The translations under genes were made by a program, and so were the position numbers. From NCBI GenBank assembly GCA_947653505.1, contig CANTHI010000069.1, positions 1-11,103 of the forward strand: a stretch of DNA of 11,103 nt, in the 5' to 3' direction. This document shows, in pieces, positions 505-10,583 of this stretch. The notes under the pieces were generated by a model that did no database searches, was not told the DNA's origin, and saw only the letters and a program-made list of their open reading frames with translations. Position 1 is the stretch's first letter. Each line of letters opens with the position of its first letter. This DNA is from an uncultured Eubacterium sp. (lineage in GTDB: Bacteria > Bacillota_A > Clostridia > Lachnospirales > Lachnospiraceae).

Positions 505-1902
505 CTATCTGCGTCTCATATACGCATCCAGCTTATCCGTATTCTGTATTATCCGTCTCTCAGACACTCCCTGCTGTCTCGCAAATCCGACGCTGGCCCG
601 CATTCTTGTCTCCGGTGTGCCTCTTGCCGGATTCAGGCTGCGGTCGGCAACGTCTGCAAACTGCCGGTATTCCCTGTCCGCCTCTAGTACAAACTCCCGG
701 AACATCCGGCCGGATCTCAGGTCATACTGCCGCATCCTGGCATTATACTGCTGCAGCGCATACTTATCATTCAGTCCCACCACGCTTAAATATCTGTCAA
801 AAGCCTGAATGGCAGCGCTGCCGCAGCGGATCCGCAGCTCCTGAAATACCAGAACCAGCAGTCTGGCCCAGGCAGCCAGATTCAGGTGCAGTACAAATGT
901 CAGCAGACTTCCGCCCTGCAGCGCGGCGCGGATGGCCGCATCCATACCATCGGTCAGGCATAATGCGGCATCGGAAATGAGCAGCATCATGCGCAAATCC
1001 GCATGGCTGGCAGACGGCACGCAGTCTCTCCATTCTTTTCTGCTGTGGAAACGTCTTTTTAAAATCCAGATCAGCTTTACGGACAGCTCCGCGATCATCA
1101 CCGGTACTGCCATCGCCGCTCCGTGTCTGAGATCGTATCCTTCTTCAAATACACGCACCGCCAGCTCCGCAAAGGCTGTGCCGTCAGAGCTTTGAAAGTT
1201 CATAAATAAAAACAGCTCATAAAACGGCACCGGCAGACCGGCGCCTCTTCCGGTTTTTCCTGCCCTTCTTGTAGAACCTGAGCCGCAAAGATCCGATGCC
1301 AGATGGCCCAGCCAGTTGCAGATGCCGCAAAATATCTTTGCGTGCAGATTCGTGCCCTGCATATACATTACCTTATTGTCTCTGGCGTCTCTGACCGGGT
1401 ACAGCCGGATTACCCTGCCCTGCGCCGCAAAGCTGGCCTGTCCGGTGAACTGGTCCAGAATGGAAAATAGCAGTCCGATGATGTCCGGAGAATGTGCCAG
1501 GGAAAGCAGATGGTGATTTTTAGGCGTCATGTTTGCCAGTGCCCCGTTCGTCTGCTGTAAATCCGGCGCATATCTGGCGTCGTAATTTACCGGAAAAGAT
1601 TGTTCCAGATAGGAAATGGACCTTTCCAGCGTGTCCGGGGCTTTCTTTGGCTTTCCGTCCATCGTCGTGCGCCCGTCGCCTTTCCAGAGCATCACTGCTA
1701 CTTTTTGCACAAATGCGTCCGCACCCCTGTCTGTGAGTCTTCCAAGCCGCCCTGCGCCTGGCGCCCTGACAAACAGCGCGTCCACAATGCCTGCGGCAAA
1801 GCCGCAAAAAGCGGCTATCATATAATCGTTTTTATCGCATTGGCCTGCCTGCCACAGATTTCCCTGCGCCTGCCTGTCTAATGCCAGTTCTTTTGCATTC
1901 AT
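505..1902 (-). CDS. conserved multi-hydrophobic-segment protein of unknown function
   Basis: A 465-aa protein. The open frame extends upstream to 2085, but the ATG at 1902 is chosen for two reasons: it overlaps the stop of the preceding gene as ATGA, and GGGAG lies 6 nt before it. Hydrophobic stretches occur near residues 28-46 (DYMIAAFCGFAAGIVDALFV), 138-150, 225-236, 262-281 and 330-355, so membrane association is likely; there is no signal peptide. The most distinctive motif is TPKNHHLLSLAHSPDIIGLL at 126-145, followed by ILDQFTGQASF. From memory, this motif marks a widespread family of bacterial hypothetical proteins; I cannot name a Pfam entry. The C-terminal 90 residues are charged and probably helical. 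The ATGA overlap implies translational coupling to the Gly/Ala-rich protein before it, so the two may form a complex. No enzymatic residues are evident. It is the last gene of the operon. Confidence 0.85.
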   Translation of the reverse strand: MNAKELALDRQAQGNLWQAGQCDKNDYMIAAFCGFAAGIVDALFVRAPGAGRLGRLTDRGADAFVQKVAVMLWKGDGRTTMDGKPKKAPDTLERSISYLEQSFPVNYDARYAPDLQQTNGALANMTPKNHHLLSLAHSPDIIGLLFSILDQFTGQASFAAQGRVIRLYPVRDARDNKVMYMQGTNLHAKIFCGICNWLGHLASDLCGSGSTRRAGKTGRGAGLPVPFYELFLFMNFQSSDGTAFAELAVRVFEEGYDLRHGAAMAVPVMIAELSVKLIWILKRRFHSRKEWRDCVPSASHADLRMMLLISDAALCLTDGMDAAIRAALQGGSLLTFVLHLNLAAWARLLVLVFQELRIRCGSAAIQAFDRYLSVVGLNDKYALQQYNARMRQYDLRSGRMFREFVLEADREYRQFADVADRSLNPARGTPETRMRASVGFARQQGVSERRIIQNTDKLDAYMRRR

Positions 1903-2780
1903 CCTGATCTCCCTGATAGTACTGCTCCCAGTTTTTTCGAAAGTACTTCTGTCGTGTTGATTAATGCTCCCAGTTCCTGTTTTTCGTCCTGTGTAAAATC
2001 CGCATAGTCTTTTTTCCGGTTTCTGCTTATGCGCAGCAGCTGCTGTGAGATTTTGTTTGACAGCATTTTCGTTTCTTTGTTCCATTTATTTACAGTCACA
2101 TCCGCTCTGGAAATACGCTGCATTTCTTTTTTTATGGCGATGATACTCTTTTCCGTGCGGCGTGCAAGCTCTATATTTGACAGGTTCAAGGCTGCCAGAC
2201 TTCCCGCCAGCGACACCCCGCCGATGATCCAGCCAACCGGCCCCATAAGGTTCAGCATAACCTGGCCGCCCAGCATACCTGCTCCCCCTGCCGCCATACT
2301 GCCTCCGCCCAGCCATGCCAGCGCCGCATTCGTCGCAGCTGCTCCGGATAAGGACGCGATGGCTGTCCCTGCTGACGTCGTCCCAAACGTCATGGCGGCT
2401 GACACGGCAGCAGCCGGCCCGAATGCCGCCAGCCCCGCGCCTCCGATCACGCCGGCCACTCCGGATATGCCGGCTGCACTGCCCGGCTGCGTATATCCGC
2501 CGGTCTGCATGTTTCGGATTTGCCTTTCCAGCTCCAGAAACTTCTGATACCGGAGCCTGACCTCCCCGGTCTTTTTGTCATAATCGTGCGGCCTGCCTGA
2601 CAGACCGCTGATATAATTCTCCATACGCTGAATCACACCGACCGCAATTTTTCTCGTGCTGTGCAGACGCTCCATATCGGACAGCGTTTTTTTCAGGACC
2701 GCGGTATACTGCTGGTCTGCTTTTTTCAGATCACGCACAGCCTTATTTTTATATTCCTCATTCAGCATGATTTCTGTCAT
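1899..2780 (-). CDS. Gly/Ala-rich (glycine-zipper-like) membrane-interacting protein
   Basis: A 293-aa protein in three parts. Residues 1-92 are charged and helical, probably coiled coil. Residues 101-200 are an almost uncharged Gly/Ala/Ser-rich core, including ASLSGAAATNAALAWLGGGS at 142-161 and the segment MGPVGWIIGGVSLAG at 179-193. Residues 201-293 are again charged and helical. The core resembles glycine-zipper or helical-hairpin membrane-insertion segments. Comparable SGAAATNAxLAxLGGGS cores recur, from memory, in bacterial proteins of unknown function. It follows the B12 radical SAM gene by 12 nt and overlaps the next gene by ATGA. The ATG at 2780 has GGAAGGGG immediately before it; the alternative ATG at 2768 has that run 12 nt upstream, so the exact start is uncertain by four residues. 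A pore-forming or membrane-anchoring partner of the GTPases is an inference. Confidence 0.85.
   Translation of the reverse strand: MTEIMLNEEYKNKAVRDLKKADQQYTAVLKKTLSDMERLHSTRKIAVGVIQRMENYISGLSGRPHDYDKKTGEVRLRYQKFLELERQIRNMQTGGYTQPGSAAGISGVAGVIGGAGLAAFGPAAAVSAAMTFGTTSAGTAIASLSGAAATNAALAWLGGGSMAAGGAGMLGGQVMLNLMGPVGWIIGGVSLAGSLAALNLSNIELARRTEKSIIAIKKEMQRISRADVTVNKWNKETKMLSNKISQQLLRISRNRKKDYADFTQDEKQELGALINTTEVLSKKLGAVLSGRSG
1909..1913 (-). promoter_or_regulatory. ribosome binding site deciding the start at 1902
   Basis: GGGAG on the minus strand lies 6 nt before the ATG at 1902, inside the last codons of the preceding gene. This supports the ATGA-overlap start over the longer frame that opens at 2085. 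Confidence 0.7.
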
Positions 2781-2792
2781 CCCCTTCCGCTG

Positions 2793-4493
2793 CTAAAACT
2801 CACTCATATATACCAGACACCGTTTGTTTAAGCGCTCATATGTTTCCTGAATCTTTTGCAGCGGTACGGAAAATGCCTCTGCCATTTCCGAAGCGGTATA
2901 AATGCCTGCCGCGTCTGCCAGAATCTGCATTTCCAGCCCGTAAAACTCTCCGGCCTCCGAACGCATACGCCCGCCATCCAGTACAAAATCTTCAAACGTA
3001 CGGATGATATAACGGGAAGGCGAAAAGCTCTGTTCTTCCTGTGAAAGATGCTCCAGAAACGTCACCAGATAAGCATGGGACAGATAATGCCGCTCCCAGT
3101 CCGGATTAAAGTGCACCCGCTTTCCACCCTCAAACAGTCCCTGCAGCACATCCGCTTTGTCCGGTGTGTCTGCGCAGGTCCGGTATAACTGTTCCAGATA
3201 ATCCTCAAATTCCCTTTTCTGTTCATAGATAGCAGCAGCGGAAAGTTCCTTTGTCCTGACTACCGGACAACGCATCGTATTCAGACACTGCCGCTCCAGC
3301 TCCGGCTGCAGACGGATGTCAAACAGCTCCGGTTCGTTTACAATCCTTGTATTCGGATATGGTGCAAAATATACGACATACAGCTCTATGATGCCTTTTG
3401 CCGCTTCCACCAGTCTTTGGGCCAGCTTTTTGCTCTCCTGCACTGTCTCTTTTGTCTCCAGCGCCCCGCCGATAATAAAGTTGCCTGTAATCCCATGCAG
3501 TCCCGCCTGTTTGCATATCTGCACTGCTTTTACGATACTGTCAGCGTCTGTATGCTTCTGATACGCCTTTAACACCGCATCACTCCCGCTTTCAATCCCA
3601 AACTGGATACACGTTAAGCCCGAATCCACCATTGTTTTCACCAGCTCTGAATGCTTTAGCACAAAGGAAATATGCCCTTCGCAAAACCACCGGAGCTTCC
3701 GTTTCCGGATTTCTTTGCAAAATGCAAGCACCCTTGCCGGATCCAGCGTAAACGTATCGTCATAAATATTCAGATACGTAAGACGCGGATTGTTTGCGCA
3801 CATATAGTCAATCTCATCCATCACACGATCGATACTGCGAAACCGCACATTTTTTGCATTCGCGCCTTCGTAGCAAAAAGAGCAGTGGTACGGGCATCCC
3901 CTCCCTGTCAGAATCCCTGCTACTGTTCCCTGTCTGAGATTCTTTTTCAGACTGTCAGTCATGGAAGGATGCGGGATCGTATCCAGATCGGTTATAACCG
4001 CGTTTTCACAATAATTTACAACAAGCGTCTTTTCCTGCGCATCCCGCATGACAAGCGACGGCACCTGCGGTAAGGCAACCGTGCCGTCAATGCAGGACCG
4101 TAAGAGCATATAAACCGGAATCTCTCCCTCTCCGATAATCGCAAAATCGTTGCCGGTCGTCTCAAAAAATTCATAATCCAGTCCGATCGCCTGCGGTCCG
4201 CCGACCACCGTTTTCACATCCGGAAACTGCTTCTTTATCCAGGAAATGGCATGCGCGACAATCCGGATATTATCCGCAGCCGCATAAAAACCAATCACCG
4301 GCACCTGATGCCCAGTGATCTCCTGGCGGATAACTTCCTTACACTGTGGCACATCTCCGGTAAATACATAGGCCTGAAAGTGATGCATCCGCAACCACGC
4401 CGCGATCAGATACTGCCCGATACTGTCTTTAAACCCCTGCGCATAACTTCCCGAATCCCTTGTAATATTCATCAGCAGCATCTCATAATCCAC
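2793..4493 (-). CDS. B12-binding-domain-type radical SAM protein
   Basis: About 566 aa from the GTG at 4493; in-frame alternatives are ATG 4502 and GTG 4544 (583 aa). Numbering from 4544, residues 20-150 form a Rossmann-like domain like the cobalamin-binding domain of this class, with TVVGGP at 112-117 and IIGEGE at 136-141. The radical SAM core follows, with GRGCPYHCSFCYEG giving the CxxxCxxC triad Cys217, Cys221 and Cys224, which would ligate the [4Fe-4S] cluster, then IYDDTF and IQFGIESGS downstream. A tail of about 100 residues (roughly 480-583) ends in a winged-helix-like segment. The usual DxHxxG cobalamin-ligand motif is not evident, so B12 use is uncertain. The family includes methyltransferases and ring-forming enzymes; the substrate here is unknown. 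GTG 4493 is preferred because AGGAG lies 9 nt before it, repeating the spacing of every unit in the adjoining array. Confidence 0.88.
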   Translation of the reverse strand: MDYEMLLMNITRDSGSYAQGFKDSIGQYLIAAWLRMHHFQAYVFTGDVPQCKEVIRQEITGHQVPVIGFYAAADNIRIVAHAISWIKKQFPDVKTVVGGPQAIGLDYEFFETTGNDFAIIGEGEIPVYMLLRSCIDGTVALPQVPSLVMRDAQEKTLVVNYCENAVITDLDTIPHPSMTDSLKKNLRQGTVAGILTGRGCPYHCSFCYEGANAKNVRFRSIDRVMDEIDYMCANNPRLTYLNIYDDTFTLDPARVLAFCKEIRKRKLRWFCEGHISFVLKHSELVKTMVDSGLTCIQFGIESGSDAVLKAYQKHTDADSIVKAVQICKQAGLHGITGNFIIGGALETKETVQESKKLAQRLVEAAKGIIELYVVYFAPYPNTRIVNEPELFDIRLQPELERQCLNTMRCPVVRTKELSAAAIYEQKREFEDYLEQLYRTCADTPDKADVLQGLFEGGKRVHFNPDWERHYLSHAYLVTFLEHLSQEEQSFSPSRYIIRTFEDFVLDGGRMRSEAGEFYGLEMQILADAAGIYTASEMAEAFSVPLQKIQETYERLNKRCLVYMSEF

Positions 4494-4652
4494 AGTTATC
4501 ATCTCCTGTTCTTCACAACTATCGTCTCCTATTGTGTCCTTCACAGCTGCCGTCTCCCACTCTGTCCTTCACAGCTGCCGTCTCCCGTTCTGTCCTTCAT
4601 AGCTGTTGTTCCCATTGTGTCCCTCACAGCTGTCATCTCCCACTCTGTCCCT
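4491..4652 (-). repeat. 28-bp tandem array of ribosome-site/GTG start units
   Basis: Six imperfect tandem units occupy 4491-4513 (23 bp, truncated), 4514-4541, 4542-4569, 4570-4597, 4598-4624 (27 bp) and 4625-4652. On the coding strand most units read GGGAGA, about eight bases, then GTG AAGGACA; one unit has ATG instead of GTG. The array begins inside the last codons of the SPASM gene, whose TGA lies in the first transcribed unit, and ends at the start of the B12 radical SAM gene. The first transcribed unit (AGATGACAGCTGTG) and the last (AGATGATAACTGTG) both have a TGA five bases before the GTG. This fits a simple ancestral stop/start junction that was then multiplied in between. Because 28 is not a multiple of three, the copies lie in different frames, and gain or loss of a unit would change frame relations. 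Confidence 0.85.
4541..4627 (-). other. possible 28-codon micro-ORF inside the repeat array
   Basis: GTG at 4627 lies 5 nt after the TGA of the SPASM gene (4635-4633) and has GGGAGA upstream. It opens a frame of 28 codons, beginning VRDTMGTTAMKDRT, that ends with TGA at 4543-4541. That TGA overlaps the GTG at 4544 as GTGA, and this GTG is in frame with the B12 radical SAM gene. A ribosome could therefore be handed on by termination-reinitiation. The peptide itself is repeat-derived and probably has no function of its own. Confidence 0.3.
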
Positions 4653-5766
4653 GCCGCTGCAGCAGCTGCTCCTTCTGCCGGAGCAGCTGCTGTTTTAAAA
4701 GCCGCAGTCCTTCTCCGTGGAAAAAGGAAAACAGCTCATAATAATCACCGCACAATTCCGGTACATTCCGGTCCGTTTTGCTGATGCATGCTTCCGCACT
4801 GCATCCTGCATGGCAGATCTTCTGATATCTGCATGTCACACAGGCTTGCGGCAGACACGTCGTCCTGCGTTCCGCCAGCTCCCGCATCACGCCGGATGAG
4901 AGAATATCATACTCCGTATCTTTGATTGATCCGATTTTGTACTGATGCATATCCGCATATTTTCCGCACGGATACAGATCTCCTTTGTAATCAATGCATA
5001 AAAACTTCTGGTGGCAGTGCACGTCAAATGTACAGGCGCGGATATTCCCGCCGTCCAGCACTCCTCTCAGAATCTGGTCCAGCGGGGATACTTCCACATC
5101 CAGCTCCTGTTTTACAATATACCGGTACATCCCAATCAGATACGATGCATACTGGCCGGATTCCAGCGAAAGCTCCGGATGCTCACTGGCCTCTCCATAA
5201 TTTAAGAGCGGATTTATTTTCAGATGGATTCCGTTTTCTGCAAAATACTTCAAATACCCGTATCCTTTGTCCAGCGCATTGCTCGTAAGCACCATCAGAC
5301 ACGATACATGGACCCCGCGTTCCGACAGTCTGCGGATATTTTCTGTTACAGCGGCAAAGGTCGGCTCACCGGACGCGCTCCTGCGCTGCACATCCTGAAC
5401 CTCTTCACATCCATCCAGAGAGATTCCGACACCGACGTCATAATCCTGAATAAATGCCAGCATCTCAGGATCCAGATGAAATCCGTTTGACTGCATCAGA
5501 AGTCTGATCTGAATATCCGGATATTCCTGTCTGACCGTATCCACCGCATAGCGGTAGTCTTTTGCCGCCAGCAGCGTCGGCTCTCCTCCGTGCAGAATGA
5601 ACGTCAGCCGTTTTTCTTTCCGGTACCTGCACAGCCCGCAGGCATAGCGGAACATATCCAGCAGCTCCTGCGCCCCTGCGATATGAACCTTTACTTTTTT
5701 TCCTACAGAACAGTAGCTGCAGTTTAAGTTGCAGCCATTTGTTCCTTTGATAATAACGCTCAGCAT
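4633..5766 (-). CDS. radical SAM/SPASM-domain peptide- or protein-modifying enzyme
   Basis: A 377-aa protein. The radical SAM triad is at the very N-terminus: GCNLNCSYCS gives Cys12, Cys16 and Cys19, which would bind the SAM-cleaving [4Fe-4S] cluster. HGGEP at 59-63 is the usual SAM-binding motif, and SLDG lies at 116-119. The C-terminal SPASM region is complete. Cys251, then G-x4-Cys (GDLYPC, Cys267), are followed by Cys309-x2-Cys312-x5-Cys318-x3-Cys322 and Cys339, the expected ligands of two auxiliary clusters. Known SPASM enzymes are anaerobic sulfatase maturases and RiPP-modifying enzymes; no sulfatase is visible here. The ATG directly abuts the TAA of the GTPase gene, with GAGG 6 nt before it. 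The last about 20 residues are Q/L-rich and encoded by a hairpin and the first repeat unit, so this tail is probably a late addition. The substrate is unknown. Confidence 0.92.
   Translation of the reverse strand: MLSVIIKGTNGCNLNCSYCSVGKKVKVHIAGAQELLDMFRYACGLCRYRKEKRLTFILHGGEPTLLAAKDYRYAVDTVRQEYPDIQIRLLMQSNGFHLDPEMLAFIQDYDVGVGISLDGCEEVQDVQRRSASGEPTFAAVTENIRRLSERGVHVSCLMVLTSNALDKGYGYLKYFAENGIHLKINPLLNYGEASEHPELSLESGQYASYLIGMYRYIVKQELDVEVSPLDQILRGVLDGGNIRACTFDVHCHQKFLCIDYKGDLYPCGKYADMHQYKIGSIKDTEYDILSSGVMRELAERRTTCLPQACVTCRYQKICHAGCSAEACISKTDRNVPELCGDYYELFSFFHGEGLRLLKQQLLRQKEQLLQRQGQSGR
4660..4692. repeat. perfect 13-bp inverted repeat (hairpin)
   Basis: CAGCAGCTGCTCC at 4660-4672 and GGAGCAGCTGCTG at 4680-4692 are perfect inverted copies separated by 7 nt. 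The hairpin lies inside the 3' end of the SPASM gene, encoding a Q/L-rich tail (QLLRQKEQLLQRQ), and is immediately followed in the transcript by the start-site repeat array. On the minus-strand mRNA no U-run follows, so it is not an intrinsic terminator for the operon. On the plus strand it is followed by TTTT. Every repeat unit also carries a CAGCTG-like core that could compete for pairing with the stem. Confidence 0.75.
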
Positions 5767-7524
5767 TTACATCCTCATTTCCGCAAGCTTTTGTACAGTA
5801 CGTGCTATTTCTGCCGTCGTCTCCTTCTCGAGAATCTCAACCGGCTCATAGTACCCTCTGGTCAGATTGTCTACATACGCGTCCACGCTGGAAGAAAAAA
5901 CAGACTCCAGCTGCAGGACGATATTGCGTGCGATCTCATTGTCATTGACGCCGATATCAAACGTAGAATAACGGGTAACGGTACGCGACTTGGAAGTATA
6001 ATACGTCTTACCAAATAAATCACCGATATGCTCAATAATTCCTTCCGGCGGCCTTGTTACCCTCTCAACCTCCTTACACTTATAAGCGATCCGATCCTGC
6101 TTCATCTTCATATCACCGATACCGGTCAGCTGGATATGTAAGTCCGGAATCTGCTCCGTACTGAGCACCGCCTCGTCCGTACATACCTTCTGCACGACTG
6201 CCGAAACCGCCCGGCTGACCTCTTCGGAAATCTGCTCTCCGGAAATAACCGAAGCGTTCTTTTCTACCTCCGCTTTAGCCTTTGCCACGATCTCAATGGC
6301 TTTTACATTGACCGCGGCCCGGATCTGCTCTACCATCCAGCCTTTGCGGTCCATCAGCTCTTTCCTGCTCTGCTCAATCCCCTGGCATACCTTCGTAATC
6401 TGGCTGCTTACTTCATTCAGATTCCGGATCAGGTTGTCAAGCATCTCATTCATCCGGCCGCGCGGCGTATTTTTCTTGATCTGTGCAGCTTCATTTTTGG
6501 TAATATCCGTCAGCTTTTCCAGCAGCAGACCCATATTGCTCTGTTCAAACATCTGCTCATTGCCGCTTTTTAGCGCTTCTGTGGCTAACAGCGCGGAAAC
6601 CGTCAGAATATCCGCGTATTTCAGTACGTCCTCCATCCCCTGTTCCCGCAGGGTGTCCAGCATATACTGCTCCTGGTCTGCCCTGTCTCTGTCCGATTTT
6701 GGAATCAGGATATTGATCTCATTGCCATCCTCGTCCACATCATAGTCATAGGTATCCGACTGGGTCAGCAGCAGCAGGATCGGCTTTTCCATCGCATGGA
6801 GCTGGCGGATTTCATCAAATTCCTGCCTTGTCCCGGCAGCATCCGAATTACACGCAAAGATGACAAGATCCGAGTTTTTGACATAATCTTTTGCCAGATC
6901 TTCATTTTCCTGCGTCACACTGCCGATGCCCGGCGTATCAAACCAGCACATGCCGCCGATATCCACCCACTGGATTGTGCTTGTCGCTTCGCTCTTATTG
7001 ACATAAAACTCTTCCCCGTTGCACTCCTTTTCTTCATCCAGAGTGCTGAGTTTCTCCTGTTCATACATCTTCCCGCGGTCATACACATGAACCGACAGAT
7101 CCTCCAGCTGGTCGTAGGAGCTTGCAATCCCCGCTTTGCGCAGCGGCTGTCCCATAATAAAATTCCCGATATAGCTCTTGCCCGCCTTCACCTTGCCAAA
7201 CACGGATACGGTAAAGTGGCGTTCAAAATCCTCGATAAATTTCATGCCGTTCACCGCCTGCATAAGTTTGTCATTGGACTCCTGGATGGAATCTGACAGG
7301 CTCTGCGACGTCTGGTTAAAAATGGCCTGCATGCTTTCATCCCCGCTTTTTGCGATCCGCGCTTTCAGATTCTGTATAACATCCGTCTCCTTTTTTCCAA
7401 ACTGGTCAAGCACCCGGGAGACTTCCTGTTCGCGCCCGGACAATTCATTCTGCATCGTCTCGAACTGGTTCTTTTCCGCTATCATTGTATCCACAAAGCT
7501 ATTCATACTGTCCATCATTCCCAT
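5767..7524 (-). CDS. dynamin-like GTPase (585 aa)
   Basis: Residues 1-95 are helical and charged (probably coiled coil). The GTPase domain follows, with the P-loop GKVKAGKS at 110-117, switch-I threonines near 181-183, DTPG at 196-199, TQSD at 254-257 in the G4 position and VSALL near 309-313 as G5. Residues 340-450 are a long helical stalk-like region. Residues 495-525 (with HIGDLFGKTYYTSK) interrupt the helices and could be a membrane- or paddle-like insertion, followed by a helical C-terminus. The layout fits bacterial dynamin-like proteins, which bind and remodel membranes on GTP hydrolysis. A frame opens with TTG at 7554, but the ATG at 7524 is chosen: it lies 1 nt after the stop of the small gene and has GGAGG 9 nt upstream. 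The stop codon abuts the SPASM start, so its translation is probably coupled to both neighbours. Confidence 0.9.
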   Translation of the reverse strand: MGMMDSMNSFVDTMIAEKNQFETMQNELSGREQEVSRVLDQFGKKETDVIQNLKARIAKSGDESMQAIFNQTSQSLSDSIQESNDKLMQAVNGMKFIEDFERHFTVSVFGKVKAGKSYIGNFIMGQPLRKAGIASSYDQLEDLSVHVYDRGKMYEQEKLSTLDEEKECNGEEFYVNKSEATSTIQWVDIGGMCWFDTPGIGSVTQENEDLAKDYVKNSDLVIFACNSDAAGTRQEFDEIRQLHAMEKPILLLLTQSDTYDYDVDEDGNEINILIPKSDRDRADQEQYMLDTLREQGMEDVLKYADILTVSALLATEALKSGNEQMFEQSNMGLLLEKLTDITKNEAAQIKKNTPRGRMNEMLDNLIRNLNEVSSQITKVCQGIEQSRKELMDRKGWMVEQIRAAVNVKAIEIVAKAKAEVEKNASVISGEQISEEVSRAVSAVVQKVCTDEAVLSTEQIPDLHIQLTGIGDMKMKQDRIAYKCKEVERVTRPPEGIIEHIGDLFGKTYYTSKSRTVTRYSTFDIGVNDNEIARNIVLQLESVFSSSVDAYVDNLTRGYYEPVEILEKETTAEIARTVQKLAEMRM

Positions 7525-7525
7525 A

Positions 7526-7936
7526 TCAGTCGTCCTCCGCAAGTATACTGTCAATCTTACTTATCACACGGTCGATCTCCTGGATCTCCGATTCCACTGG
7601 TTTATTTTTCATGGCAATCTCCCTGTCTTCCTCACTTTGTATTTTCGCATCGCCGTCTTTTTCTACCTCCGGAACGGATACTACGGTTCCTTCCTGCTGT
7701 ATTAATGCATCTGACTTTAGATGTTCGTTGACTTTCTGCGTTTTATATGTATTGATTTCGTATTTTTTGTCTTCAATTTCCTTGTTTTTTGCTTCGATTC
7801 TGCGTCTTCTTTTTTCGGCTGCATTCGAATAATTAGAATAATCATCCCAATCATAGTAGGCATGGTCACTATATGGATCAGACGTTGCTATGCCCACCAC
7901 AGCACCGCCACCAACTACTGCAAATATTACTGCCAT
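7526..7936 (-). CDS. small protein with hydrophobic N-terminus and aromatic/Asp/Asn stretch
   Basis: A 136-aa protein of no family I recognise. The ATG at 7936 is chosen over the upstream GTG at 7978 because GGGAGG lies 7 nt before it. Residues 1-17 (MAVIFAVVGGGAVVGIA) are hydrophobic and glycine-rich, either a short membrane helix or a leader-like segment. Residues 20-38 are dense in Tyr, Trp, Asp, Asn and Ser, with five aromatic-x-Asp/Asn triads: Y22-S-D24, Y27-Y-D29, W30-D-D32, Y33-S-N35 and Y36-S-N38. RRRR at 43-46 and a charged, probably coiled-coil tail follow. It sits between two GTPase genes and is separated from the next by 1 nt. A 116-nt gap precedes it, in which I saw only a weak dyad (TTCAG/CTGAA at 7988-7999) and no clear promoter. 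Possible roles are a GTPase partner or membrane anchor, or a substrate of the radical SAM enzymes; both are inferences. Confidence 0.75.
   Translation of the reverse strand: MAVIFAVVGGGAVVGIATSDPYSDHAYYDWDDYSNYSNAAEKRRRRIEAKNKEIEDKKYEINTYKTQKVNEHLKSDALIQQEGTVVSVPEVEKDGDAKIQSEEDREIAMKNKPVESEIQEIDRVISKIDSILAEDD
7534..7538 (-). promoter_or_regulatory. ribosome binding site deciding the start at 7524
   Basis: GGAGG on the minus strand lies 9 nt before the ATG at 7524 and overlaps the last codons of the preceding small gene. It favours the ATG over the upstream TTG at 7554. Confidence 0.75.
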
Positions 7937-8052
7937 TACATTTCCTCCCTCGTAAATATATAAACTCTTTTCCTGCACTCCTGTATCTTCAGGTCTGAAA
8001 GAAAATAAACATCTGTTCAGTCCCCCTCTATCCTTCCTGCCACTTCTGGTCC

Positions 8053-8955
8053 TTACAAATCTCTTAACTCCTGCTGCAGCCCTTCCAGCAGGCCTCTTTC
8101 AGATGAAAAATACTCAAACACCGACCTCCATACACTCTTCCTCGTACGGAAACGGTCCTGCACACGGCCGGCGGTCTTCTTTTTCTCGTCCTGCTTTATT
8201 CCTAATGTCTGCGAAAGGATCCCTTTTATCTCACCCGCCAGCTGCTGCAGCTCTTCCCTGTCCATCCTCTGTTTGCGCCGTTCGTAATCCGCGGCATAGT
8301 CTTCCAGATAGTCTCGCAGCTGTATCATACCGCTGCTTTCCTTTAGTACCTCTGCCCCTTTGACAGCGCCGCTTAAATATTTTTTTGTGGATACGTCAAA
8401 AAACGGAATTTCCGTTCCGACAATCCCAAACACCATATTTTTGACGTCCGCGATGATGTCCTCATAATCCGCGTCTTTCTCCCTCGTATCTTTCCAGGTA
8501 CAGACAAAAATCAGCCTTTGTCTGCGCATATCCGTGTCTTTCATACCTGCGCAGATTTTCTCCAGCCACTCTGCCTCGCTCCGGTTTAACGGGCCTGTCT
8601 TAATATTGTGAACCATCATAATAATGTCTGCTTCCATCATCGTACGGAACGCCAGCTCGTCATCCTCACTCCTTACATCGATCCCCGGCGTGTCGATAAA
8701 CGAGATATTTTTGTAATGAAACAAGTCCGCACTCGTCGTCGTACGTGCCGCTCCGGTCGGAAAATGCTCCTTCGTTATGCTGTCTGTGAATATATTAAAC
8801 AGGCTGCTCTTTCCGGAACTGACCATCCCCGTATTTACGACCCGTACCGTCTGTTCTCCTGTATTTCTTTTTCTGATCGCCTGATACCTTTGCACATACT
8901 GATTGCCGCAGTGTTTTTGGATTACCGCTAATTCATCCTTTGTGAATCCAGCCAT
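8053..8955 (-). CDS. dynamin/Era-like small GTPase (300 aa)
   Basis: The P-loop is GMVSSGKS at 43-50, followed by SLFN. Switch-I threonines lie in ARTTTSA (70-76). DTPG is at 88-91, followed by IDVRSEDDE. TWKD at 153-156 occupies the G4 position and STKK at 189-192 the G5 position. The C-terminal 100 residues are strongly charged and helical, too short for a full dynamin stalk, so it may act with the larger GTPases of the operon. The frame begins at 8982, but the ATG at 8955 is preferred because AGGAGG lies 9 nt before it; the upstream ATG has no such site. It starts 35 nt after the stop of the first GTPase. A role as a regulatory or partner GTPase is inferred from pairing with other GTPase genes, as in bacterial systems such as IniA/IniC or LeoABC; homology to those is not shown here. 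Confidence 0.88.
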   Translation of the reverse strand: MAGFTKDELAVIQKHCGNQYVQRYQAIRKRNTGEQTVRVVNTGMVSSGKSSLFNIFTDSITKEHFPTGAARTTTSADLFHYKNISFIDTPGIDVRSEDDELAFRTMMEADIIMMVHNIKTGPLNRSEAEWLEKICAGMKDTDMRRQRLIFVCTWKDTREKDADYEDIIADVKNMVFGIVGTEIPFFDVSTKKYLSGAVKGAEVLKESSGMIQLRDYLEDYAADYERRKQRMDREELQQLAGEIKGILSQTLGIKQDEKKKTAGRVQDRFRTRKSVWRSVFEYFSSERGLLEGLQQELRDL

Positions 8956-8964
8956 ATGGCAGAT

Positions 8965-8970
8965 CCTCCT
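8965..8970 (-). promoter_or_regulatory. ribosome binding site deciding the start at 8955
   Basis: AGGAGG on the minus strand lies 9 nt before the ATG at 8955 and downstream of the alternative ATG at 8982. It makes the shorter 300-aa product much more likely. Confidence 0.8.
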
Positions 8971-8990
8971 TTCTTTTTTCATACCTGATT

Positions 8991-10583
8991 TTACAATTCA
9001 TTTTCTATTTTCATCAGACGTTTGCGCAGCATATGCAGCTCTTCCCTCTGACGCTGTCCTTCTTCCTGCTTCTGCTTATTTTCCGCATCCAGTTCCTGGA
9101 TCTGCGCAAGCAGCTGATGGTACATCTCATTCAGCCCTCCGGTCACAGCCGTATTCAGCGTCCGGTACAGCTCGTCCAGATCACTGGACGCATACTGCCT
9201 TGCCTCCTGTTTCTTGCGGATCCGCTCCTGAACCTGATACCGGATTCTTTCATTTTCCAGCTCCGCCTCCTGCTGCAGACGGGCATACTTTTCCTCTTCC
9301 CGTCTCTTGCGGGATTTAAACATCTCAAAAATAAAAAAGCTTTTTTGTTCAGGCTCCGTGTCAAACGAACTGTCCGGTATTTCATAATCCTCCATGTCAT
9401 CGTCCCCACCTCCCGGCATCCCTCTGGTCCGCATACTGGAAGCGTCAAAGTCCAGATACGGAACCAGTTCCACATCCAGCCACTCCGACGGGAAATTACG
9501 TCTGGCAAACGCTTTCAGCTCACTGGCCTTTGATTCAAAAAGATCCTGCACTTCCATAAAAGCCATATCTGCCACGGATTCAAATACTTCCGGATCCCCG
9601 CCCGCATACGAATTGGACAGTTCCTCCAGATGGCTGTATACCGCCTGCCGGGTCATAATCCGCAGCTCCTGCATGATATTATTACGCCTGCTGGCCAGCG
9701 TCTGCATACGCATGCTAAAATCCTCCGTCATGTTCCCGTTCATATTTTGCATAATCAGCTGCTCTGCCTCATTCATACACTGATGCAGGTTTGATGCCGG
9801 CTGTTTAAACAATGCCGTTACCGATTCTTCATTCTGTAAAATCTGCGTAATCCGCTTATCCAGAAATGCCACATTGCTAAACTCATAAAGTTTTAGATTG
9901 TTTTTCTGTATCCCGTTCAGTGCTTTTTTGGCATTGAGTATGACTACCTCATACCGGTCCGCGATATTGCGGTCTCCGCTTACTTTGATCAGATTCTGGA
10001 TGACCTTATACTGGATCACTTTCAGCTCCTGCCCGTGTTCCTCTTTCGCCTTCTTTTTCTGCTCCTGTGTCCATTCCGGGCTGACCGTACCGCCTCTGTC
10101 ATTTAACACAATGATAAACGGAATCCCTTTACGGATCAGCTCCGCCAGACGTCTGTAATTATCCCTGTCTTCAAAAATACCTTTTGTACTGATGACAAAC
10201 AGGATCATATGACACTTGTTCAGAAACTGTTCCGTCACACGCTCATGCTCAATCGGCGCATCCACGCCAGGCGAATCTACGAGCGTATAGTCTCCCCTGT
10301 CATACTCTGAAATCCGGTCTGTCATCGGCCTGTCCGCCACCGGCGCTACTTCTTCCCCGCAAAGCGTATTGATCAATGTACTTTTTCCACTGTTATAGAT
10401 TCCATACACCATAACCTTTGGCTTTTCCACATCTAAAAGCCCCAGTACATTTTCCTGGATCTCTTCCTCAAAGCCGCAGTCACAATCCGGAAACTCACAG
10501 GCTGTAAACTGCAAAAAATCTTCCGCGACTTCCCTGAACTGTTCTGCAAAATCCTTCTTTTTGTTGTTGCAATTACTTTTCAT
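8991..10583 (-). CDS. dynamin-like GTPase with C-terminal coiled coil (530 aa)
   Basis: First gene of the operon. Residues 1-50 are an acidic helical leader with a Cys cluster (Cys29, Cys34, Cys36). The P-loop is GIYNSGKS at 61-68, the likely switch-I threonine is Thr88, DSPG is at 103-106, and ILNAKK at 215-220 is in the G5 position. The G4 position reads LNDRGG at 160-165, which lacks the usual Lys and Asp of NKxD, so nucleotide specificity may be altered. Residues 260-380 are a helical middle region. A flexible acidic linker (391-411, with GGGDDDMEDYE) and an aromatic-basic patch (FFIFEMFKSRKRR, 416-428) come next and could touch membrane. The remaining about 100 residues are Gln/Glu/Arg-rich coiled coil. 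The ATG at 10583 has an AAAGGA run about 11 nt upstream. Expression probably starts from the palindrome-bearing promoter region near 10640-10672. Confidence 0.9.
   Translation of the reverse strand: MKSNCNNKKKDFAEQFREVAEDFLQFTACEFPDCDCGFEEEIQENVLGLLDVEKPKVMVYGIYNSGKSTLINTLCGEEVAPVADRPMTDRISEYDRGDYTLVDSPGVDAPIEHERVTEQFLNKCHMILFVISTKGIFEDRDNYRRLAELIRKGIPFIIVLNDRGGTVSPEWTQEQKKKAKEEHGQELKVIQYKVIQNLIKVSGDRNIADRYEVVILNAKKALNGIQKNNLKLYEFSNVAFLDKRITQILQNEESVTALFKQPASNLHQCMNEAEQLIMQNMNGNMTEDFSMRMQTLASRRNNIMQELRIMTRQAVYSHLEELSNSYAGGDPEVFESVADMAFMEVQDLFESKASELKAFARRNFPSEWLDVELVPYLDFDASSMRTRGMPGGGDDDMEDYEIPDSSFDTEPEQKSFFIFEMFKSRKRREEEKYARLQQEAELENERIRYQVQERIRKKQEARQYASSDLDELYRTLNTAVTGGLNEMYHQLLAQIQELDAENKQKQEEGQRQREELHMLRKRLMKIENEL

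Follow-up and report, generated by a model that had tools for sequence, protein, structure and literature searches.

The 11,103-nucleotide stretch analysed here (contig CANTHI010000069.1 of an uncultured Eubacterium sp.; hereafter the window, i.e. the whole stretch) carries an operon with a six-gene core, A–F, encoding three dynamin-like GTPases (A, B, and D), a small repeat-bearing protein (C), and two radical S-adenosylmethionine (SAM) enzymes (E and F); two further genes, G and H, follow in the window, where the order of transcription is A-B-C-D-E-F-G-H. The operon and its A–F core are real. We give very nearly an even chance to the reading, suggested by the sequences and by analogy, that E cross-links and F methylates a tether in C and that these modifications tune a LeoABC-like dynamin machine. 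The broader proposal of an undescribed machine, i.e. a dynamin complex with a tether stitched and methylated by a dedicated radical SAM pair and with exchangeable defence effectors, is tentative, its probability lying clearly below one half.

Organization and recurrence of the six-gene core

Positions 505–10583 of the window are filled by eight open reading frames (ORFs), all on the minus strand and in one direction. A preliminary description of the stretch had reported eight co-directional genes for P-loop GTPases, a SPASM and a B12-type radical SAM enzyme, and two hydrophobic proteins (G and H), and the ORFs, Pfam matches, and hydropathy bear this out. Homolog comparison suggests that C starts at 7936, D at 7524, F at 4502, and H at 1902, all giving products shorter than the longest ORFs, and the start of H at 1902 overlaps the stop of G. 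With these starts, the spacings from A–B to G–H are 8, 116, 1, 0, 130, 12, and −4 bases, so that the earlier wording 'closely spaced' suits most gaps but not B–C (116 bases) and E–F (130 bases), which exceed those in relatives. In eight relatives, 39 of the 40 core gaps are ≤40 bases; the sole larger one, the A–B gap of locus L002 (235 bases), depends on the start chosen for B. The E–F gap is ≤20 bases in eight relatives, and a 28-bp unit repeated 5.2 times at 4506–4650 of the window, spanning the end of E and the E–F gap, resembles a local tandem repeat. Rfam and tRNA scans of the window returned nothing useful.

A search with a profile of D against one genome per species yielded 15 loci; their hosts are Clostridia, as metagenome-assembled genomes (MAGs) or isolates, apart from one Candidatus Riflebacteria MAG and one goat-rumen bacterium. 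One locus (L015), in which only residues 31–129 of D matched, was set aside, leaving 14 with D identities of 36 to 68%; L016, L028, L029, L031, and L032 are repeats of loci already counted, and L011 and L012 are near-identical in layout and hardly independent. A, B, and C lie ahead of D, with A first and B second, in each of the 12 relatives in which this region is sequenced (the sequence begins only at D in L006 and L010, L014 ends inside D, and a scaffold gap of 100 bases runs through B of L004). E and F lie directly past D in 13 of the 14 relatives with sequence there (L001–L013 and an exception in genome G631), and F follows E in 13 of 13 core loci with E. The pairwise distances of the A–F products correlate (r = 0.88–0.97; nine loci, 36 pairs that are not independent), which fits joint inheritance. 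Because the order recurs with one exception past D and the distances correlate, the operon is not a chance arrangement. The radical SAM genes and the GTPase genes recur together across distant taxa, which removes the concern that they might adjoin only in this strain; the operon is likewise intact past D in these 13 relatives but not in the G631 exception or in proteobacterial stretches carrying a module without radical SAM genes.

The A–F set is rare and patchy. In the class to which L002 belongs, 1 of 391 genomes carries D, namely the L002 genome itself, on which the search was centred; in the family of L011, D is present in 3 of 397 genomes (that of L011, on which this search was likewise centred; that of L007; and G631, with a fragment). 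Full-length F is confined to the two of 397 genomes (apparently the same 397) with full-length D, the other F matches reaching ≤205 bits vs >870 bits for full-length F. Among 120 matches listed for each of D and E, 39 same-sized contigs are common to both, vs 0.47 under jitter, and among the matches listed 23 of 66 C homologs share a same-sized contig with D or E, contig size being a proxy and this figure a hint only. A similar-looking neighbour pair, i.e. a reverse-strand gene of ~410 amino acids and a large gene with a kinase-like start, was seen by eye in L036 (1–4841; G631) and L010 (5443–11018); L036, unlike L010, lacks E, F, and a patatin-like gene.

The repeat of gene C and its candidate modifying enzymes

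Gene C (7526–7936, minus strand) was given no role in the preliminary description and proves to be the most informative gene; its 136-amino-acid product, the proposed substrate of E and F, is probably the key component. The protein consists of a hydrophobic N-terminus (residues 1–20 in the window by hydropathy), a strict [Tyr/His/Trp]-x-[Asp/Asn] repeat that closes with YSDAAER or a like sequence, and a helical hairpin. A hydrophobic start is present in all 66 C homologs obtained by protein search, and an AlphaFold2 model of one of them, P0145 (mean confidence score, pLDDT, 76.5), has helices at residues 37–75 and 91–138 and a pLDDT of <50 at residues 1–36. The tether repeat of the window (7823–7873, minus strand) reads YSD-HA-YYD-WDD-YSN-YSN and holds five Omega-x-[D/N] triplets, of which four follow one another without a break (7823–7858). 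The pattern [YHWF][SGNDAT][DNE] occurs four to nine times within the first 85 residues of every one of the 66 homologs, with a mean of 6.45 vs 0.99 in shuffles, in a sample biased toward the repeat by its repeat-bearing query.

With 14 proteins from the window and loci, the set comprises 80 C proteins (71 distinct starts among 78), of which 77 could be aligned on the repeat end; the three unanchored proteins are that of L005, with broken repeats, and those of two relatives without radical SAM genes. Among the anchored proteins, aromatic residues occupy positions −3, −6, −9, −12, −15, and −18 in 97, 97, 96, 95, 92, and 83%, respectively, and the next triplet in 60%, and Asp or Asn occupies −1, −4, −7, −10, −13, and −16 in 97, 95, 96, 91, 87, and 71%, respectively; the five triplets nearest the hairpin are aromatic in 92–97% and acidic or amidic in 87–97%. 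The middle residue varies; it is Ser in most cases, with Asp or Gly prevailing at one site (position −8: Asp in 47, Gly in 17, and Ser in 9 of 77). Unbroken runs of at least four triplets are confined to C in a scan of 2,553 open stretches from the window and the loci compared. A DNA microsatellite was rejected as the origin of the repeat by its mixed codons in the loci examined and by the tandem-repeat finder, which did not report it in the window.

Gene E (4633–5766, minus strand; 377 amino acids) encodes a SPASM radical SAM enzyme (Pfam Radical_SAM, 68.7 bits; SPASM, 23.5 bits vs a cut-off of 21.5). In 59 sequences, C16 and C19 of its CxxxCxxC motif are invariant, C12 is kept in at least 90%, and eight more cysteines at 245–339 are invariant, a pattern shared with the SPASM enzymes of triceptide systems. 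Gene F (2793–4502, minus strand; 569 amino acids) has Radical_SAM and B12-binding matches (69.1 and 36.0 bits, respectively) and a CxxxCxxC motif invariant in 12 aligned sequences, which places it among B12-dependent radical SAM enzymes. The NCBIfam models nearest to E describe sulfatase maturases and peptide maturases, several of the latter being cross-linkers. The window E scores 117.8 bits vs a cut-off of 445 for the cyclophane maturase YhhB, 94.5 vs 310 for GrrM/OscB, 86.4 vs 370 for FxsB, and 90.4 vs 370 for HxsB.

The highest scores of the window E are those of a sulfatase maturase (185.8 bits vs a cut-off of 349.45) and, second, DynA (172.9 bits); both models match all 11 E members scanned, with DynA giving the best E-value. 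These scores would suit another reaction on the C repeat, i.e. oxidation of the middle Ser to an aldehyde, epimerization, or a dynobactin-like Tyr-His link. We regard such a reaction as rather improbable: the middle residue is not fixed, and the sulfatase-type motif [CS]x[PA]xR is found in the first 60 residues of none of the 80 C proteins. In 77 of the 80, that region is also free of Cys, which disfavours thioethers, and both a sulfatase-type target and thioethers were rejected on these grounds.

The preliminary description had supposed radical-based modification of one component, and the register of the repeat and the confinement of its runs to C fit this idea, C looking like a substrate of such modification. 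Relatives without E and F are informative here. A tblastn search with D identified 37 plasmid records, 29 of them from Klebsiella, Raoultella, and Citrobacter, and eight records, including three of these 29, were examined. A four-gene module is kept in two lineages, i.e. Klebsiella plasmids and Photobacterium toruni. The order in Klebsiella is B, a 152-amino-acid protein, D, and A (L021 and L022), with genes for a TrlF ATPase and an S-4TM pore effector nearby; in a third Klebsiella stretch (L017), the module is rearranged, with IS26 copies interrupting it and gene A on the other strand. In the P. toruni plasmid, a B-C-D-A module (L024, 6387–11082) lies between csm6/cas1/cas2 and RAMP genes, surroundings that we read as a type III clustered regularly interspaced short palindromic repeat (CRISPR) region. 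Profiles of A, B, and D confirm the module in L017, L021, and L024 (1.7e-58, 3.7e-42, and 9.1e-73 in Klebsiella and 1.9e-49, 3e-28, and 2.5e-51 in Photobacterium, respectively), and profiles of E, F, and C have no match in the ten plasmid stretches searched. The C-position proteins of Klebsiella and Photobacterium have a Ser-rich linker with longest triplet runs of 1 and 0, respectively, a start that is hydrophobic by sequence (in Photobacterium, below the hydropathy threshold), and a charged tail. The contrast with these relatives, whose C-position proteins lack the repeat register and whose searched stretches have no E or F match, favours modification of C.

E and F may instead act on another target, be it a lipid, one of the GTPases, a small cofactor, or a peptide that escaped notice, in the style of HydE and HydG with the GTPase HydF, the C repeat then being merely a sticky aromatic tether. 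This alternative is unlikely, although it retains more weight than another reaction on C. A weakly matches HydF (45.2 bits vs 325.55), and the best named model for F is the hopanoid enzyme HpnJ (103.3 bits vs a cut-off of 577.6). However, EngA (38.1 bits) and Era (37.9 bits) match A comparably, as any related GTPase would, and HydE and HydG lie outside the 25 best models for E or F; a HydEFG-like cofactor factory proper was rejected on the HydF, HydE, and HydG results. Action elsewhere also leaves unexplained the three-residue register and its absence in the two relatives without radical SAM genes.

Further plasmid matches comprise B–D pairs in Acinetobacter, Diaphorobacter, and Caballeronia and a D–A pair in Acetobacter; the pairs on the Acinetobacter (L026) and Diaphorobacter (L023) plasmids adjoin catechol or benzoate degradation genes. 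A search of Escherichia coli genomes for the Klebsiella module gave nothing useful.

The putative dynamin machine, its downstream genes, and a possible role in defence

Gene A (8991–10583; 530 amino acids), gene B (8053–8982; 309 amino acids, a short GTPase), and gene D (5767–7524; 585 amino acids), all on the minus strand, encode products with the P-loops GIYNSGKS, GMVSSGKS, and GKVKAGKS, respectively. All three pass the Pfam Dynamin_N cut-off of 27 bits (56.7, 35.2, and 27.9 bits, D only barely), and A also matches MMR_HSR1 (58.3 bits). In PADLOC, all three match LeoA or LeoBC models significantly but partially: A (7.7e-26) and B (1.8e-17) match LeoA, the match of A covering residues 3–349 vs 4–358 of 559 in LeoA and that of D residues 37–455 vs 10–395 of 601 in LeoBC. 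These matches place A, B, and D provisionally among LeoABC-like bacterial dynamins. Solved structures searched with a profile of the D sequence gave no match; the predicted model of D, compared with PDB entries, resembles solved dynamin-like proteins, with a helical neck or trunk outside the G domain, and D is a dynamin-like protein by predicted fold. The membrane-remodelling machine supposed in the preliminary description gains from this model, while remodelling itself is a putative activity assigned by analogy.

Gene G (1899–2780, minus strand; 293 amino acids) encodes a Gly/Ala-rich protein with one hydrophobic stretch, and gene H (505–1902, minus strand; 465 amino acids) a protein with three. 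No above-cut-off Pfam match was obtained for C, G, or H. In PADLOC, G matches PDC-M09A nearly full length (3.1e-83), and H, taken as its 526-amino-acid ORF, matches BnzB (1.1e-111) and, over residues 437–523 only, PDC-M09B (3.2e-8); homologs of PDC-M09A and PDC-M09B lie side by side in the window, as in PDC-M09. This tail is exchangeable: G and H directly follow F in the window and in 4 of the 14 related loci only (L001–L004), so that the eight-gene unit of the preliminary description was rejected as a single unit and reduced to its A–F core. A patatin-like lipase gene with GTSVG and DGG motifs takes their place in L005 (14587–15468) and L010 (4595–5446), and L006 and L013 end soon after F. 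BnzB-like matches to H are found in 487 plasmid records, of which 269 are from Enterobacter and 433 are typed as conjugative; BnzA partners stand beside H relatives on the Vibrio and Lactococcus plasmids checked, with a WYL gene near the Lactococcus one, and the window H lacks the long N-terminal extension of these BnzB relatives (L018 and L020).

In the mechanism that we propose, the N-terminal hydrophobic segment of C would be a membrane anchor, connected by the aromatic-x-Asp/Asn tether to a helical hairpin, the putative binding site for the GTPases. E would link the aromatic ring at position i to the beta carbon of Asp or Asn at i+2, triplet after triplet, so that a flexible tether would become a string of small rings, and F would methylate the same tether. 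The stiffened anchor could then position the three GTPases at the inner membrane; there, their GTP-driven assembly might seal or remodel the membrane on damage, e.g. in phage infection, and in some lineages the exchangeable downstream gene (G–H or the patatin-like lipase) may provide an effector that acts on membranes. Radical SAM enzymes fail in oxygen, and the tether might for this reason also signal, through its state of modification, redox conditions or phage-caused metabolic collapse.

Several observations weigh against this mechanism. L005 has E and F, yet its repeats are broken (longest run, 1); in L007 and L013, where E and F are also present, the repeats are interrupted or contain Glu, and no run reaches four triplets. 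C is unlike a usual precursor of ribosomally synthesized and post-translationally modified peptides, its repeat coming after a hydrophobic start, and no peptidase or transporter was found above the Pfam cut-off among the eight products. The window E falls below every cut-off among the 25 best of 67 models, and E of L001 (5413–6540) is split by an in-frame stop, which may be a sequencing error or decay in this MAG, the other core genes of L001 being open. Just two module lineages without radical SAM genes were seen, and the C profile misses their C-position proteins, whose kinship with C is judged from position and layout. In G631 (L030/L036), the contig starts inside D (last 212 residues, 2.1e-48; C lies off the contig), and D is followed by a reverse-strand gene and a kinase-like gene in place of E and F; the genome has no F match at 1e-50. 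This exception slightly lowers our confidence in the tether mechanism and in the broader proposal of an undescribed machine, and slightly raises that in action of E and F elsewhere. Neither G–H nor a patatin-like gene directly follows F in L007, L008, L009, L011, and L012, and no match was found in viral contigs scanned with D and F or in phage records scanned for D.

A defence role, which the preliminary description had held possible, is plausible but unproven, and we put the likelihood that the A–F module serves defence a little short of even. In its favour are the matches of G and H to defence-candidate models, the CRISPR-embedded Photobacterium relative, and some defence-like neighbours: WYL-domain genes adjoin L001, L002, and L011 (and, by sequence, the same kind of gene adjoins L012), a HEPN protein gene follows H in L003, an RT-NERD-helicase-like gene follows the patatin-like gene in L005 (2.1e-48), a PD-T4-6-like kinase gene lies near L010 (3.1e-21), and a PDC-M09A-like gene lies ~3.5 kb past F in L007. 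On the other side stand the five loci with neither tail and the 7 of 10 chosen neighbours that have no PADLOC match, in a scan with no random-neighbourhood control, so that the association is suggestive only. A PHROGs search with A, D, G, and H returned one weak match, to A. The module might instead be a general membrane-repair or envelope-stress machine with no dedicated anti-phage role, in the manner of Bacillus DynA or the Campylobacter dynamin-like protein (DLP) pair; this alternative concerns role, is compatible with the chemistry proposed for C, and carries a substantial although minority probability. It suits the five loci without either tail, membrane repair is discussed in the literature for dynamin-like pairs (PMC6104087), and Bacillus DynA also delays phage lysis (PMC8844932). 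Against it, the rare and patchy spread, the G–H and patatin tails, the WYL regulators, and the relative within a CRISPR region are in line with an accessory module of a defence-like kind.

If the tether mechanism is correct, radical SAM cross-linking would, beyond its use in antibiotic-like peptides, also serve to stiffen or switch a functional component of membrane machinery, and a radical peptide chemistry so far associated mainly with natural-product peptides would build a resident structural part. C would further offer a system for repeated ring formation over four to nine tandem triplets and a chemically modified adaptor for bacterial dynamins, whose membrane targeting remains poorly known.

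Comparison with known systems

LeoABC has a three-gene layout, and the window resembles LeoABC and LeoBC in that three dynamin-like GTPase genes stand together and A, B, and D match Leo models; it differs in the partial nature of these matches, in the shortness of B, and in having a repeat-bearing anchor as well as two radical SAM genes. LeoA, LeoB, and LeoC are named together in PMC6104087. With the dynamin-like proteins of solved structure (BDLP, the Cj-DLP pair, IniA, and LeoA), the likeness lies in the predicted fold of D, whereas the window has three GTPases plus C, E, and F. In the literature searched, as far as its accessible text goes, no paper describes a system combining dynamin-like proteins with radical SAM genes; the preliminary description likewise knew of no described system with dynamins in an operon with two radical SAM maturases.

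The window shares with the Bunzi and PDC-M09 systems H, which matches BnzB, and G, which matches PDC-M09A. G does not match BnzA, unlike in Bunzi, and the Bunzi-type stretches of Vibrio and Lactococcus lack the A–F genes; Bunzi proper was rejected, as none of the eight products matches BnzA at an E-value of 0.1 or better in PADLOC. The His-Xaa-Ser (Hxs) system likewise pairs a three-residue repeat protein with two radical SAM enzymes, but the repeat of the window differs, F has a B12-binding domain, and GTPases are present.

Triceptide systems include a short precursor peptide with export or protease genes. The window resembles these systems (YxdB, HaaB, YhhB, OscB, XncB, and MscB) in having a SPASM radical SAM gene by a gene for a small aromatic-x-Asp/Asn protein. 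YxdB forms a C3(Tyr)-Cbeta(Asp) link, and the motifs modified by HaaB and YhhB contain His or Tyr (PMC11002830). The putative substrate of the window would stay anchored within a GTPase machine and not be released as a peptide, and the set lacks a peptidase or transporter and has a B12 radical SAM gene after E. C, with 136 amino acids, a hydrophobic start, and a helical hairpin, is also not a short precursor, and E stays below the scores of the curated triceptide maturases despite its neighbouring aromatic-x-[D/N] protein. The set is not classed as a triceptide system because the curated score and the features of a released precursor both fail. Judging from these sequence matches, the GTPases are LeoABC-like, the tail is that of PDC-M09, and the enzyme-motif pair resembles triceptide systems; no paper joining the three was found in the literature searched.

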